The notes beneath the pieces were generated by a model. The model saw only the letters and a list, made by a program, of their open reading frames with translations, made no database searches and was not told where the DNA came from. Positions 1,854 through 6,700 of a stretch of 23,467 nt of DNA are shown here, in pieces; within the stretch, counting starts at the first letter, position 1, and every line of letters starts with the position of its first letter. The translations under genes were made by a program, and so were the position numbers. The stretch is from positions 1 to 23,467 of the IMG/VR virus record IMGVR_UViG_3300050821_000635. One strand, written 5' to 3'. The stretch is from a virus.

Positions 1854-2528
1854 ATGAAACGCAAGACCTCGCACCTTAGTGGATTCTCGTCAGGAGCCAG
1901 TTTGGGCGGCAAGGTCTCCCGCTATCGGGACAAACAGAACATCTATAAGCAGGGCGAGCGAGCCTACACGCTCTTTTACATTCAAGAAGGAGGCGTGCGG
2001 CTCAGTACCCGAACGAAACAGCAACCATCTGCCGTGACCGCGATCCTCGGGGTGGGTGATTTCTTTGGCGAGCTTTGCCTCGCAGGTTATCCGCTTCGTA
2101 TGTCCACGGCTGTCACGTTGACCGCTAGCTCCATACGAACCATCCAGAAAGCAAAAATGCTCCAAATACTTCGGAAAAAGAATAAGGTGTCAAATGCCCT
2201 GGTGGCGTATCTGTTGTCCAGCCTCCAGAACTACCAGAATCATGTTTCGGAGTTACTGACTGCTTCTGCTGAGCAACGATTGGCGTGCGTGCTTTTGCGG
2301 CTAGCGCACATTCACAAGAGCGGCCCATCCGTTGTCGAGATTCCGATCCTGAGTCACCAAGTTCTGGCCGACATGGTCGGCACCATACGCCCACGAGTCA
2401 ACACGTTCATGAATCGGTTCAGGAAACAGGGATTCATTGACTACGACGGGGGGTTAGAAGTGCATCATTCGTTGCGGAAAGTTCTCGGGAGTCGCTCGGA
2501 GACTTCCGCAATTCGCTCAAATCCTTAG
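1854..2528 (+). CDS. Crp/Fnr-family transcriptional regulator
   Basis: A 224-residue protein starting at ATG 1854, chosen because GGAG lies six bases upstream and the family alignment begins there; an in-frame start 54 bases upstream has no such site. Residues about 20-110 form a cyclic-nucleotide-binding beta-roll (IYKQGERAYTLFYIQEGGV, then GVGDFFGELCLAG at 66-78 and YPLRMSTA at 79-86). A dimerisation helix covers about 110-140. The winged helix-turn-helix is at about 165-190 (LSHQVLADMVGTIRPRVNTF), followed by the wing FIDYDGGLEVHHSL. No cysteine cluster for an Fnr iron-sulphur centre is visible. The GYPLRMSTA and YDGGLEVHHSL signatures resemble regulators common in Acidobacteriota. It is the first gene of a plus-strand cassette and may control lysogeny, host genes or the downstream peptidase. 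Confidence 0.9.
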   Translation: MKRKTSHLSGFSSGASLGGKVSRYRDKQNIYKQGERAYTLFYIQEGGVRLSTRTKQQPSAVTAILGVGDFFGELCLAGYPLRMSTAVTLTASSIRTIQKAKMLQILRKKNKVSNALVAYLLSSLQNYQNHVSELLTASAEQRLACVLLRLAHIHKSGPSVVEIPILSHQVLADMVGTIRPRVNTFMNRFRKQGFIDYDGGLEVHHSLRKVLGSRSETSAIRSNP

Positions 2529-2565
2529 CAACGTTGAAGTTTAAGTGAGACTGGGCGAAAACCGC

Positions 2566-2727
2566 ATGAAAAAGAAAGAACTCGCCAGCGAGCAACTGGC
2601 TTCTGTCCCCTGTCCTACCTGCGGTGTGCCTTTCGGGAAGGGCTGCATACTGTATTCGGGTGGTTTGCGTTCAGAACCTCACACACTCCGAAAACTTGCC
2701 GCTATTGAGGCCCTTGAAAAGAAGTGA
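2566..2727 (+). CDS. Phage-type small zinc-finger protein (53 aa)
   Basis: The protein carries VPCPTCGVPFGKGC followed by SEPHTLRK, i.e. C-x2-C-x6-C...H. This is the pattern of the short phage nucleic-acid-binding zinc fingers that read roughly CPxCGAxxGxxC...GxxxxxPHxxR. I place the start at ATG 2566 (MKKKELAS) because the residues before it look non-conserved; a GTG at 2545 in the same frame would add seven residues, and neither has a strong ribosome binding site. It follows the Crp/Fnr gene by 37 bases on the same strand, so the two are likely co-transcribed. The exact role is unknown. Confidence 0.7.
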   Translation: MKKKELASEQLASVPCPTCGVPFGKGCILYSGGLRSEPHTLRKLAAIEALEKK

Positions 2728-2838
2728 TCGCACGTCTTTCCACGTCGGGGTCACGTCAGCACCTTCGTTAGAGAGTCACGATCTGTTATCCCCTACATAG
2801 AGACTGAAAGCATGTTTTTTGACCCCTTGCGGATAGTT

Positions 2839-2888
2839 AAAAAACGGCCTATTACCTCCGGCCTATGGCTCCCGCCATAGGCCCGGAG
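2839..2888 (-). terminator. Possible minus-strand terminator with alternative hairpins
   Basis: Read on the minus strand, GGGCCTAT (2878-2885) can pair with either of two ATAGGCCG copies, at 2859-2866 or 2845-2852. The second copy is followed at once by TTTTTT (2844-2839), as in an intrinsic terminator. The first pairing gives a longer helix (2856-2888, with core CCTATGGC/GCCATAGG and a four-base loop) and would compete with it. This would stop late-operon transcription entering the plus-strand cassette from the right. The loop of the terminator form is long, so the call is tentative. Confidence 0.35.
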
Positions 2889-2894
2889 TATAAT
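2856..2894 (+). promoter_or_regulatory. Inverted repeat abutting a TATAAT box (putative promoter/operator)
   Basis: A perfect -10 hexamer TATAAT lies at 2889-2894, directly after the inverted repeat CTCCGG-CCTATGGC / GCCATAGG-CCCGGAG (2856-2888, one bulged base, core palindrome 2862-2881). No good -35 box is found 16-18 bases upstream (TGGCTC occupies that spot), so activation by a bound protein is plausible and the palindrome occupies the place where such a protein would sit. Transcription would start near 2900 and lead into the peptidase gene. The Crp/Fnr protein or the small zinc-finger protein encoded upstream are candidate binders; this is inference. Confidence 0.45.
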
Positions 2895-2919
2895 GTACCT
2901 AGTCGGTAACAGGTAAAAC

Positions 2920-2980
2920 GGAAGTCGCCAGAGCTACCAACTCCGGCGACTTCCTAACCCAACATCGGAGGCACCCGATG
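2920..2980 (+). promoter_or_regulatory. Structured 5' leader that can hide the start codon
   Basis: Two stem-loops lie between the putative transcription start and the peptidase gene. The first pairs GGAAGTCGCCAGAG (2920-2933) with CTCCGGCGACTTCC (2941-2954), 14 pairs with one mismatch and a seven-base loop. The second pairs CATCGG (2963-2968) with CCGATG (2975-2980) around AGGCAC. That second helix holds part of the Shine-Dalgarno (GGAGG, 2967-2971) and the whole ATG (2978-2980). In addition CTCCG (2941-2945), in the 3' arm of the first stem, can pair with CGGAG (2966-2970), so the two states exclude each other. This arrangement fits control of translation by RNA folding. Confidence 0.5.
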
Positions 2981-3430
2981 CTAGGCTGGAAGCATCTTAG
3001 CGTATTTGTATTTCTTGCTGTACTCGCAGCGGTCGGAGCACAAGCAGCGCCCACTTCACCCTGTGTTCGTTACCCCAAGGGAAAGGTTCCCGCGACTCAT
3101 GTTCTCCCGCTCTGCGTCGAGACAGGGACACCAGAGGTCGATGCCATGCAGCGAATCGTGTCGATACGCAAGACTCTACCCGTTCCCGCCGATTGGCACT
3201 TCTTCACTTTGTCGGAAGCTGAGTGGAGTAAAGCCGCGCCGGGTACACATACCGCCTACAGCAATCTGGCTTACAAGACCACGTTCATTCGTGAGACATA
3301 CGCGGAGTCGGCGAGCGATGCCGCCCTACGCCAGACCATCGCGCACGAAATGGGTCACCGTATCTGTAACTGTACGGATGAACCCGAAGCGAATCGCGTC
3401 GCCGCCCAAATTACACAAGGTTCGCACTAA
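2978..3430 (+). CDS. Secreted small HExxH metallopeptidase
   Basis: A 150-residue protein with a GGAGG site six bases before ATG 2978. Residues 1-23 form a classical signal peptide (LSVFVFLAVLAAVGAQA, cleavage after AQA23), so the mature 127-residue protein should be exported. HEMGH at 123-127 supplies two zinc-binding histidines and the catalytic Glu124. A following DEPEANRVAAQI (134-145) offers Glu135 or Glu137 as third ligand, like the E-x-E-A-N-R-x-A-A pattern of ImmA/IrrE-type gluzincins, but here in a secreted protein. Cysteines at 29, 46, 130 and 132 could form disulphides. It overlaps the opposing gene at 3411-3701 by 20 bases. Substrate is unknown; a role in envelope remodelling, superinfection exclusion or host benefit is inference only. 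Confidence 0.75.
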   Translation: MLGWKHLSVFVFLAVLAAVGAQAAPTSPCVRYPKGKVPATHVLPLCVETGTPEVDAMQRIVSIRKTLPVPADWHFFTLSEAEWSKAAPGTHTAYSNLAYKTTFIRETYAESASDAALRQTIAHEMGHRICNCTDEPEANRVAAQITQGSH

Positions 3431-3701
3431 TCTTCGCGACCTTCGCCCGGCCCGCGAGTACTTGAGCCGCCTCAGCCCGCTTCTCGTCAAGGTGCTTCTG
3501 AATCGAAGTCTGCAAGTCTGCCTCGGACAGAGTAGACAGACTGTCCTTGCCGTCCTCGGCTCCCACCGTCACGCGGTGTTCGTGCGTTGCATCTCCCAAC
3601 TTAGAAGTGATGTGGAGCAATATCTGACCGTTGTCCGTGTGAAGGACTTCGGCCGTGGAGACTACATCTCCGTGTTCTGTTGCGATGCTCTTGGTTATCA
3701 T
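3411..3701 (-). CDS. Hypothetical protein following the tail tip gene
   Basis: A 96-residue protein starting MITKSIATEHGD, placed at ATG 3701, just after the tail tip stop codon at 3704. GGAGG lies about 13 bases upstream, inside the tail gene. A GTG at 3728 in the same frame would overlap the tail gene by 25 bases and is the alternative start. The first half looks beta-rich (VVSTAEVLHTDNGQILLHIT) and the second half helical and charged (SEADLQTSIQKHLDEKRAEA). I do not recognise a family. It is the last minus-strand gene before the plus-strand cassette, and its 3' end overlaps the peptidase gene tail to tail. Confidence 0.6.
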   Translation of the reverse strand: MITKSIATEHGDVVSTAEVLHTDNGQILLHITSKLGDATHEHRVTVGAEDGKDSLSTLSEADLQTSIQKHLDEKRAEAAQVLAGRAKVAKISANLV

Positions 3702-3703
3702 AA

Positions 3704-6700
3704 TTATGTGGTTACCTCCAACCAGCACTCGTATACGTCGATTGTCACAACCGGGCTTTGCGAAGCAGCGACCTGACCCTCAAATTGGACTTGGATGCGT
3801 CCCATATTGTTCGGGGACGCGATGCTGATATGGTCTGTCGTCAGCGAGCGAGAGCCGAAGGACGCCACGCTGTATAGATTCGTGAACGTGTTCCCATTGT
3901 CTAGGCTGTAGTTGCACTTGCAATACCCCAAGGAGTTGTTGGTGGTCACGGAGGCAGAGCTTTTGATGTTCAGTGTCGCCGACTGGAAAGAGTAGACAGC
4001 GATGGGCGGCAGTGACAAAATCACATTGAACCCCCCACCTATGCCTCCCACGTTCTGAGCGACGCATGCGGCGTAGGTGGCGTCGTTACCGTCATTGGCA
4101 TTGTCCGGGCTTGTGACAGAGCCGTTGGTGCTGAAAGCAATAGCTGAAGTGGAGAAGAAAATCTTCAAAAAATCACCCATCTGTGCGCCGACTCCACCAT
4201 CATTGTTTCCGGTTGTGTCAGAAGCGCCAGCAGCCGGGGTCACGACGGAACCCACGAAGAAGCGACCACTATCATCTATGGCTGTAGCCTTGGTCGTCGT
4301 TGCGTTGAACGTGACCGACCCGCCCGCGAGTGTGTCATCGTCATAGTAAACGTAGTACAGCGTGGAGTAGCTCAGTGCCGTAACGCTGCCGCTACTGATG
4401 GAGATGTCGCCCTTTGACGAGGTTCTCATCGTGAAGGAGGCAATGTTGATCGTCGCGTTCGACCCGGCGTCATGCCCCGTGAGCGGGTTTGTGGTAGGAC
4501 GATAGGTCAGCGTTGACGCCGTCGCGGAAAAGTTGGCTGAACCGTCAGAGACTTGCCCTGTCGCCGTGTTGGTGCCAAGCACGGCACCATACCAAGCCGT
4601 GACGTTGTCGTAGTAGCCTGTCCCCGAACCAGAGTAGTTTCCGTTAAAGCAAAAAGGATGCAGGTAAACCGCGTTCGCTGGCGCTGTCCCGGTTGATGAA
4701 ACGTATGTCCATGATGTGTTCGTGCTGTTGCTGGCGTAGATTCCACTCAGGTACCCGAAGTTCTTGTCCAAGAAATTGCAGCCAACTGTCGGGGTCGTGG
4801 TGCCGTCGCTTTTCACGTAGCCGCCGAACACAAACTTGTCCCCCGGCTGGCAACTCCAATAGTTAAGAGTGTCCATCTCAGCCGTGGAAGTGCCCGTCAA
4901 CGACAGAGATTGCGTTCCGCTCTGCTGACCGGAAGTGATGTAAGCCGTGGTGTTGCCCGATGTCCAACCCGGAGGCGGAAGTATGGAAGAACTCGCCTCA
5001 AAGTTGGAGTTGGGAATCACGATTGAGGAGCCGCTCAGCACAACGGGAGCCTTGACGTAGGTCGAGCCTTGACCCACATAGTCCAGAGTCGGATTCGGCG
5101 CGTAGGCACGTACCCCTGAGAATGTGAGCGTAACTCCCCCCGCAGAAGTGTAGTTGTACAGGGCGATGCGGGCGAATTTGGCATTCGACGGCGCTGTGAC
5201 TGTGCCCGTGAATTGCTGATAGGTGTTCGACACTGTCGGGCCTCCCGCAGCCACGATGTCGTTGACCGAGATCAGGTCTGCGGGGGATCGCGAGAAATCC
5301 GTATCGTTGCTGTACCACAGGATTCTGAAATACATAGACGCAGGATTCGCTACCGTGCTGCTCGCCCACACGGAGAAACTGTATTGCAGCCCCGCCGTGA
5401 CTCCGAACGGCTGGCAAGCGACGCTTCCGCCACTGGTGCTGTTGCTAGGGCCTAACTGCTGCGCATAGGTTCCGCTGTAAGGCGAAGTGCTGCGGGAGTA
5501 AGTTATATCAGAGGTAGCAGCCTCAAACGATTTTGTCCACCCTTGCGCCACTGACACCGTGCTCGGGAAAATGTCGAAGTTGCCGTTGTATGGCAAGTCG
5601 GTGGAAGCCTGCGTTGTGCTGCTTCCGAGCACAGGCAGTCGGATGTACGTCGTGCCGTCGCTGAGGTTGTCTGCGGTCTGAGGGCCGATCAGCGTCCAGT
5701 AGGTCGTGTTCGTGGGCACGTTTCCGGTCGATGACAGGATGTTCTTGTAGATGTTGCCCGTGTACGTGACTTCCATTCCCGGCGTGTACGCGGTTCCGCT
5801 GTTGTAGGCACCCAAGAGAGTAAGGTTGGCGATCTGGTTGGCTGGAATCGACGACACAGAGCCTCCGAAGTCCGTAGTCCCTCCGCTCGCCGTGATGTTG
5901 TTGACCTGAACTCCGCTAGAGTTCACGCCCGCCACGTTGATCGCGTAGACCAGCACGTCGTAAGCAGAGCCGTCCACGCAGTTCAGGACGTAGAACTGTG
6001 TGTCGCTTCCCGCCGCGATACCCGCAAGGCTCCAAGTGCCCGCGCTGTGAGGACTGGTGTAGATTTCTATCTGACCGCCGTTCGTGACAAAGTAGTCGGC
6101 GGGACTCGTCCACTGGACGAGGATGCGATCCTGAATGAGGCCGTCCGCCCGCACCATTGCGACGCCCGATCCGCTGGTAGCCGTCACGCTCGTAGGCGGC
6201 TGGCATACCGTGGGATTCGGAGGCGCGGCTCCGACTTTGGGGCCGAGCCAAGTGTTTTCGTCTGTGGCCGGATTCCAAGAGAAGACGTTAGAGTCTATCT
6301 CTTTCAGCACCAAGTCCACGCCGACGCAGGGCACCTGAGTACCGTAAGCCTGATTGCCGCTGGTCTCGTCGCTGCCGCTTCCCGGCTGCCCGACGCCGAA
6401 TTGGATTTGCGTCGCGGCTGTGTCCAAGACGATTGAAGTCTGCTGCACCTCGAACACTTTTTGGTTGAAGCCGAACAGCGGGAACGTGAACATCACCGTG
6501 TCGCCCGGCTGGAGCGGGAATGCACTGAGCTTGCACGGGAGCACGAGAGACTTCTGCCTACGGATGCGCTCCAAGTATATCTTCGCCAGACGTTGCGTCA
6601 TGACGCCGTCCGTCGTGAACTGCAACTGAATGTCCTGCCAGATCGGTTGGTTGCCGTCCGCAGCCAAGGCTGTCGCGTCTTGGTAGGGCGGGAAGCTGGA

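Follow-up and report, generated by a model that had tools for sequence, protein, structure and literature searches.

The window analyzed here, a 23,467-base linear virus record in IMG/VR, carries three plus-strand genes at nucleotide positions 1854–3430, beside a minus-strand siphophage head-tail module. They encode a Crp/Fnr-family regulator, a small zinc finger and a putative secreted peptidase. Sequence comparisons favor, with a probability of roughly 55%, the reading that a phage from an integrase-bearing lineage took up a host Crp/Fnr gene and its zinc-finger partner as one self-controlled unit that acts on a host regulon. On this evidence the soil phage appears to have a small portion of the gene regulation of its likely acidobacterial hosts, with which it could alter the cells it infects. 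The first-pass annotation had proposed that the three genes are a lysogenic-conversion (moron) unit; that guess can now be restated as a testable control circuit whose operator, regulator and host targets are all named. Most of the explanation comes from two elements absent from the first reading, the CRP-type operator and the gene pair of the host.

Gene organization of the window

The regulator gene (224 aa, positions 1854–2528) has a GGAG ribosome-binding site upstream. The zinc-finger gene (53 aa, positions 2566–2727) begins 37 bp past the end of the regulator, and the peptidase gene (150 aa, positions 2978–3430) follows after a gap of 250 bp. These three genes face the minus-strand late genes, as originally described. 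To the right are the genes of the head-tail module: fibre, tail, tape measure, major tail, adaptors, capsid, portal and terminase. The peptidase gene is convergent with, and overlaps by 20 bp, a minus-strand gene (positions 3411–3728) for a 105-aa protein with no family match, whose start lies inside the end of the fibre gene.

To the left of the cassette there are three small minus-strand genes (positions 531–1606), none of which shows a confident homologue in the phage collection. One of them (positions 1331–1606) encodes a 91-aa protein with one membrane segment and a coiled coil, which is holin-like by inspection only and gave just two weak matches in related phage records. The other two (positions 531–1309) overlap and encode proteins of 120 aa and 139 aa; their sole relatives found are on one contig of an Acidoferrales-order genome, G039. 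In G039 the pair is present in the same order (L306:17323–18008), near genes that by eye resemble a phage remnant, without PHROG support. Here and below, Acidoferrales refers to the 95 genomes of the order to which genome G005 belongs, the name being taken from the labels of its members.

The GC content at third codon positions (GC3) is 0.50–0.62 in the cassette, lower than in the structural genes from fibre to terminase (0.62–0.81). The 91-aa gene has a GC3 of 0.84 and resembles the structural genes. For the left part of the window, trinucleotide composition failed to discriminate between a phage and a host origin. The earlier placement of the cassette inside the late region holds only if positions 531–1606 are phage DNA.

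The nearest capsid relative (73% identity) is on an 11-kb fragment that stops before the tail genes are complete. Among the closest related records, the three largest (capsid identities of 47%–52%) carry tyrosine integrases, and the phage lineage is therefore probably temperate. The same prophage was sought by its fibre in the 95 Acidoferrales genomes, with no hit.

The Crp/Fnr regulator

The cyclic-nucleotide-binding fold noted in the first reading is confirmed by Pfam: the regulator has an N-terminal cNMP-binding domain (PF00027, E-value = 4.5e-14) and a C-terminal Crp-type helix-turn-helix (PF13545, HTH_Crp_2, E-value = 1.1e-11), both of which exceed the curated cut-off. This is the domain arrangement of the CRP/FNR superfamily. 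An alignment with E. coli CRP shows that E72 and R82 are kept, but S83, T127 and S128 are replaced by M, Y and Q, which sets the protein apart from cAMP-type CRPs. The first 74 residues are free of cysteine; thus the N-terminal iron-sulphur cysteine cluster of FNR is not present either.

The regulator shares its domains and 64%–80% aa identity with chromosomal genes of Acidobacteria, several of them from subgroup 2/Acidoferrales. The nearest relatives found are in five Acidobacteria MAGs (74%–80% identity), including one labelled gp2 and one Candidatus Acidoferrales; the next best match drops to 47%. In a maximum-likelihood tree of 109 Crp proteins, the window gene, the five MAG genes and a gene from genome G042 form one clade with 100/100 support and a long stem. 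Pairwise dN/dS values against the host homologues are 0.12–0.25, which indicates purifying selection and hence a real gene. By these affinities the regulator is host-derived. The window gene differs from the chromosomal acidobacterial regulators in that it is virus-borne, in tandem with a zinc finger, and has an operator-like site 87 nt before its start.

Other Crp genes in virus contigs are distant (34%–35% identity), one set lying amid integrase and repressor genes and another beside endolysin and HNH genes; none belongs to the clade of the window gene. The cNMP-binding domain was detected in 0 of 26 related phage records; the closest of these are fragmentary and stop short of the region in question. 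Within that coverage, this absence agrees with the original moron interpretation, as does the host origin of the accessory genes. A role of the regulator in anti-phage defence was considered and rejected; one very weak match to PycC (0.0071) spans the cNMP domain.

In four host genomic loci (L021, L022, L024 and L025) a Crp gene of the phage clade forms a tandem with another Crp/Fnr gene that differs from it. Two of these (L021 and L024) also have a gene for a small His-rich protein, with its own operator, upstream.

The zinc finger and its linkage to Crp/Fnr genes

The 53-aa protein matches the Pfam family PF24623 (Phage_zn_bind_8) with an E-value of 4.6e-7 and 29.9 bits (cut-off 24), and displays the CPxCG...C...H...R motif of that family. 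Its ligand layout is C16-x2-C19...C27...H39. Twelve chromosomal copies show 50%–69% identity to it; C16, C19 and C27 are invariant in these and H39 is missing in one. The assignment as a small zinc finger therefore stands. Although the name of PF24623 refers to phages, the family is chromosomal in Acidoferrales, where its genes have CRP-type promoters; it has 43 matches in 20 of the 95 genomes.

On chromosomes these zinc-finger genes are linked to Crp/Fnr genes. A Crp/Fnr gene is found within flanks of ≤3 kb at 12 of the 39 zinc-finger loci for which the Crp density is known, where 0.41 would be expected (P = 3e-14, about 29 times chance). When genomes first reached through their Crp loci are left out, the count is 9 of 28 loci against 0.27 expected; with apparent orthologues collapsed to seven events, the probability is still 2.7e-7. 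Crp is also by far the commonest neighbour family: it is present at 12 of 40 loci, and the runner-up among real families at five. The 12 arrangements comprise five tandems with Crp before the zinc finger, as in the window, five convergent pairs and two divergent pairs. In G042 (contig C4) the neighbour of the zinc finger is the outgroup Crp of the phage Crp clade, and this pair is convergent, not tandem.

Zinc-finger genes adjoining a Crp gene, upstream or divergent, were also seen outside the Acidoferrales order (L050, L051, L060, L088 and L089), there without the operator at −41.5 that is described below. A second zinc finger in a virus is located on a 44-kb contig (IMG/VR 3300047509_000381; L286:5001–5153) beside a DNA methyltransferase and without a Crp gene; a near-consensus operator is present upstream of it at the usual position.

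CRP-type operator and promoter geometry

An unguided search for spaced palindromes in the upstream regions of zinc-finger genes yielded TGTTC-N6-GAACA in 6 of 40 regions, and shuffled sequences gave at most 2. The more general form TGTnC-N6-GnACA is found in 19 of the 40 regions at a spacing of 6; other spacings gave 0–1. The 400-bp regions upstream of 99 Crp genes also contain it, with 22 occurrences shared among 20 genes and 0–3 occurrences at other spacings. An unguided palindrome count over all of the Crp upstream regions gave no signal; the motif appeared there only when taken from the zinc-finger promoters.

With start codons corrected and up to 2 mismatches allowed in the palindrome, 28 of 40 zinc-finger genes have a palindrome that starts 48–50 nt before the start codon, with its center near −41.5. 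In these promoters there is an A at −11 in 28 of 28 and a T at −7 in 27 of 28, positions that played no part in their selection. In E. coli CRP class II promoters the palindrome is centered near −41.5 and the −10 element is placed correspondingly. The zinc-finger promoters show in their sequence this geometry of a class II CRP-activated promoter, from which a leaderless mRNA would begin at the start codon. Like those of E. coli they have a 16-bp TGT-N10-ACA palindrome, but the acidobacterial half-site is TGTnC and not TGTGA, and the apparent start point of transcription coincides with the start codon. The arrangement looks like the feature of a regulon, since it is also present at zinc-finger copies far from any Crp gene. 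It was absent before the other acidobacterial zinc fingers tried, with the exception of L075, from Acidoferrales-order genome G007. In this little-studied group of soil bacteria, the promoters are regular enough that the sequence alone allows a binding site and a transcription start to be predicted. A search of the available literature found no paper on acidobacterial CRP regulons or on phage Crp/Fnr proteins.

The window has one such site, TGTCCGTTTTGGTACA (positions 1767–1782), in the 247-bp gap before the regulator. Because there are 6 sites in 926 kb of related phage DNA, about 0.0016 sites would be expected in a gap of this length. In two of three close chromosomal tandems of Crp and zinc finger, the operator is likewise placed ahead of Crp, and the zinc finger has none of its own. 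Among the host Crp genes of the phage clade, the majority either have the site 300–400 bp away, in front of a small upstream gene, or lack it.

The putative secreted peptidase and the hairpin cluster

The 150-aa protein has an apparent signal peptide and the sequence HEMGH, an HExGH motif; no Pfam family exceeds the cut-off. It has one clear relative (36% identity, E-value = 5.9e-13) and several weak ones, all small Acidoferrales proteins, some of which also carry an apparent signal peptide. Residues H123, E124, H127 and E135 are invariant across five sequences. A pattern search found no relatives in phages, virus contigs or genome contigs, and a profile search at E-value 1e-6, a strict cut-off for so small a model, found none in 297 Acidobacteriota genomes.

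The modelled fold has block means of pLDDT of 80–94 over residues 51–150. Its fold matches are weak but agree with one another; the best in the PDB are IrrE and the jannalysin/selecase of M. jannaschii (E-value ~0.03), and in a viral library IrrE- and SprT-like proteins. The invariant residues and the model point to a minigluzincin-like protein: as in jannalysin/selecase, abylysin, IrrE and Wss1, the HExxH helix is followed by a helix with a Glu, in a small alpha/beta domain. It differs from minigluzincins in its apparent signal peptide, and the sequence similarity to them is very weak. The protein would act outside the cytoplasm; to propose the envelope or competing phages as its targets is guesswork.

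The gap between the zinc finger and the peptidase contains a cluster of strong hairpins (positions 2814–2954, fold z-scores −3.1 to −5.9): an AT-rich one at 2814–2845, one at 2853–2890, which has six T a few bases later on the minus strand, and one at 2920–2954, which is terminator-like for minus-strand transcripts. These could stop late-gene transcripts ahead of the Crp and zinc-finger pair.

Origin and possible function of the cassette

Our verdict is that the cassette is a moron-like accessory insertion, with the main caveat that its leftmost 3.4 kb may instead be host sequence flanking a prophage; it would consist of a host-derived, probably self-controlled pair of regulator and zinc finger, and an unrelated, putative secreted peptidase. 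The moron proposal is supported in part, by accessory non-virion genes next to the tail fibre, their host origin, the result for the cNMP-binding domain in the 26 related records, the integrases of the three largest of the closest records, a lower GC3 and terminator-like hairpins. Morons have a promoter and terminator of their own; at this cassette an operator-like site and hairpins are seen and no recognisable sigma-70 promoter was found. The phage morons and lysogenic-conversion loci described in two reports (PMC6469090, PMC7067206) are similarly horizontally acquired non-virion genes by tail genes, on the opposite strand, with hairpins toward the late genes. The window differs from those loci in its cargo, which comprises a regulator of transcription, a gene that accompanies it and an operator of host type.

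The part of the proposal that finds no support is the single three-gene unit. It is very improbable that sensor, zinc finger and secreted peptidase form one output programme, even though they are adjacent, on the same strand and jointly opposed to the late genes. Crp and the zinc finger are a recurrent host pair, and the peptidase is a separate, nearly orphan gene behind the 250-bp gap with its hairpins. The first reading had suggested a search for the same three-gene order; no other such locus was found in the 95 Acidoferrales genomes or in scans of virus contigs with each gene, and the contig of the nearest peptidase relative shows neither Crp nor zinc finger.

A more serious competitor, although unlikely, is that the contig represents one edge of an integrated prophage. 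In that case the stretch from position 1 to about 3430 would be host chromosome, the phage would stop after the fibre and 105-aa genes, and the cassette would be ordinary host DNA. The nearest relatives of all three genes are on Acidoferrales chromosomes, as is the 139-aa/120-aa pair, the GC3 of the cassette is host-like, and late genes often end near the attachment site. However, the 91-aa gene beyond the cassette has a phage-like GC3, the peptidase gene overlaps the 105-aa gene beside the fibre, the record is classed as a linear virus, and there is no tRNA gene in the 23.5-kb window and no core host gene in the 3.4 kb. Improbable too is a Crp that governs the phage's own genes or the choice between lysis and lysogeny by sensing the host state, with the zinc finger assisting. 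The regulator has been kept intact, and two other virus contigs have a Crp among repressor and integrase genes; yet the sole strict operator in the 23.5 kb precedes the cassette and none precedes the late genes, and the early genes are outside the window.

Uptake of the host unit is the reading we prefer. Points that count against it are the distance of 87 nt between operator and Crp start, which fits no clear promoter class, the lack of a recognisable sigma-70-like promoter, the different arrangement in most host members of the clade, the convergent pair in G042 and the possible host origin of the left part. Under the uptake model, a probably temperate phage lineage that infects Acidoferrales-like Acidobacteria would have taken from its host a transcription unit of operator (positions 1767–1782), Crp and zinc finger, in an insertion that also carries the separate peptidase gene. 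The phage Crp, switched by a small ligand or signal, would bind TGTnC-N6-GnACA before its own gene, and this self-control would let the pair be expressed independently of the late genes. The zinc finger may serve as the small output of the regulon, binding nucleic acid or protein. Since zinc-finger genes of the host share this operator with many of its Crp genes, the host regulon would come under the phage regulator as well. Gene content, host ancestry, purifying selection, the operator-like site, the promoter geometry and the chromosomal linkage are seen in the sequences themselves, whereas the binding of Crp to the operator, the direction of control, expression in a lysogen and the effect on the host are inferred.

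A further, tentative step is regulon capture, in which a temperate phage, through its own CRP-type activator and a gene of the regulon, would re-wire the multicopy zinc-finger regulon of the host in lysogens by way of TGTnC-N6-GnACA. If true, this would at the same time reveal in Acidobacteria an as yet undescribed CRP-type regulon made up of leaderless zinc-finger genes. The host-side finding, i.e. zinc-finger genes with CRP-type promoters, holds whether the left 3.4 kb is phage or host.

In three genomes, and probably in one more, a CRP-type palindrome is also located 120 nt before the gene for a conserved membrane protein of 281 aa (G030:C88, G037:C433, G040:C9 and G042:C3; L287–L289 and L291). 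By eye this protein resembles an acyl-CoA desaturase, and it is likely a further member of the regulon.
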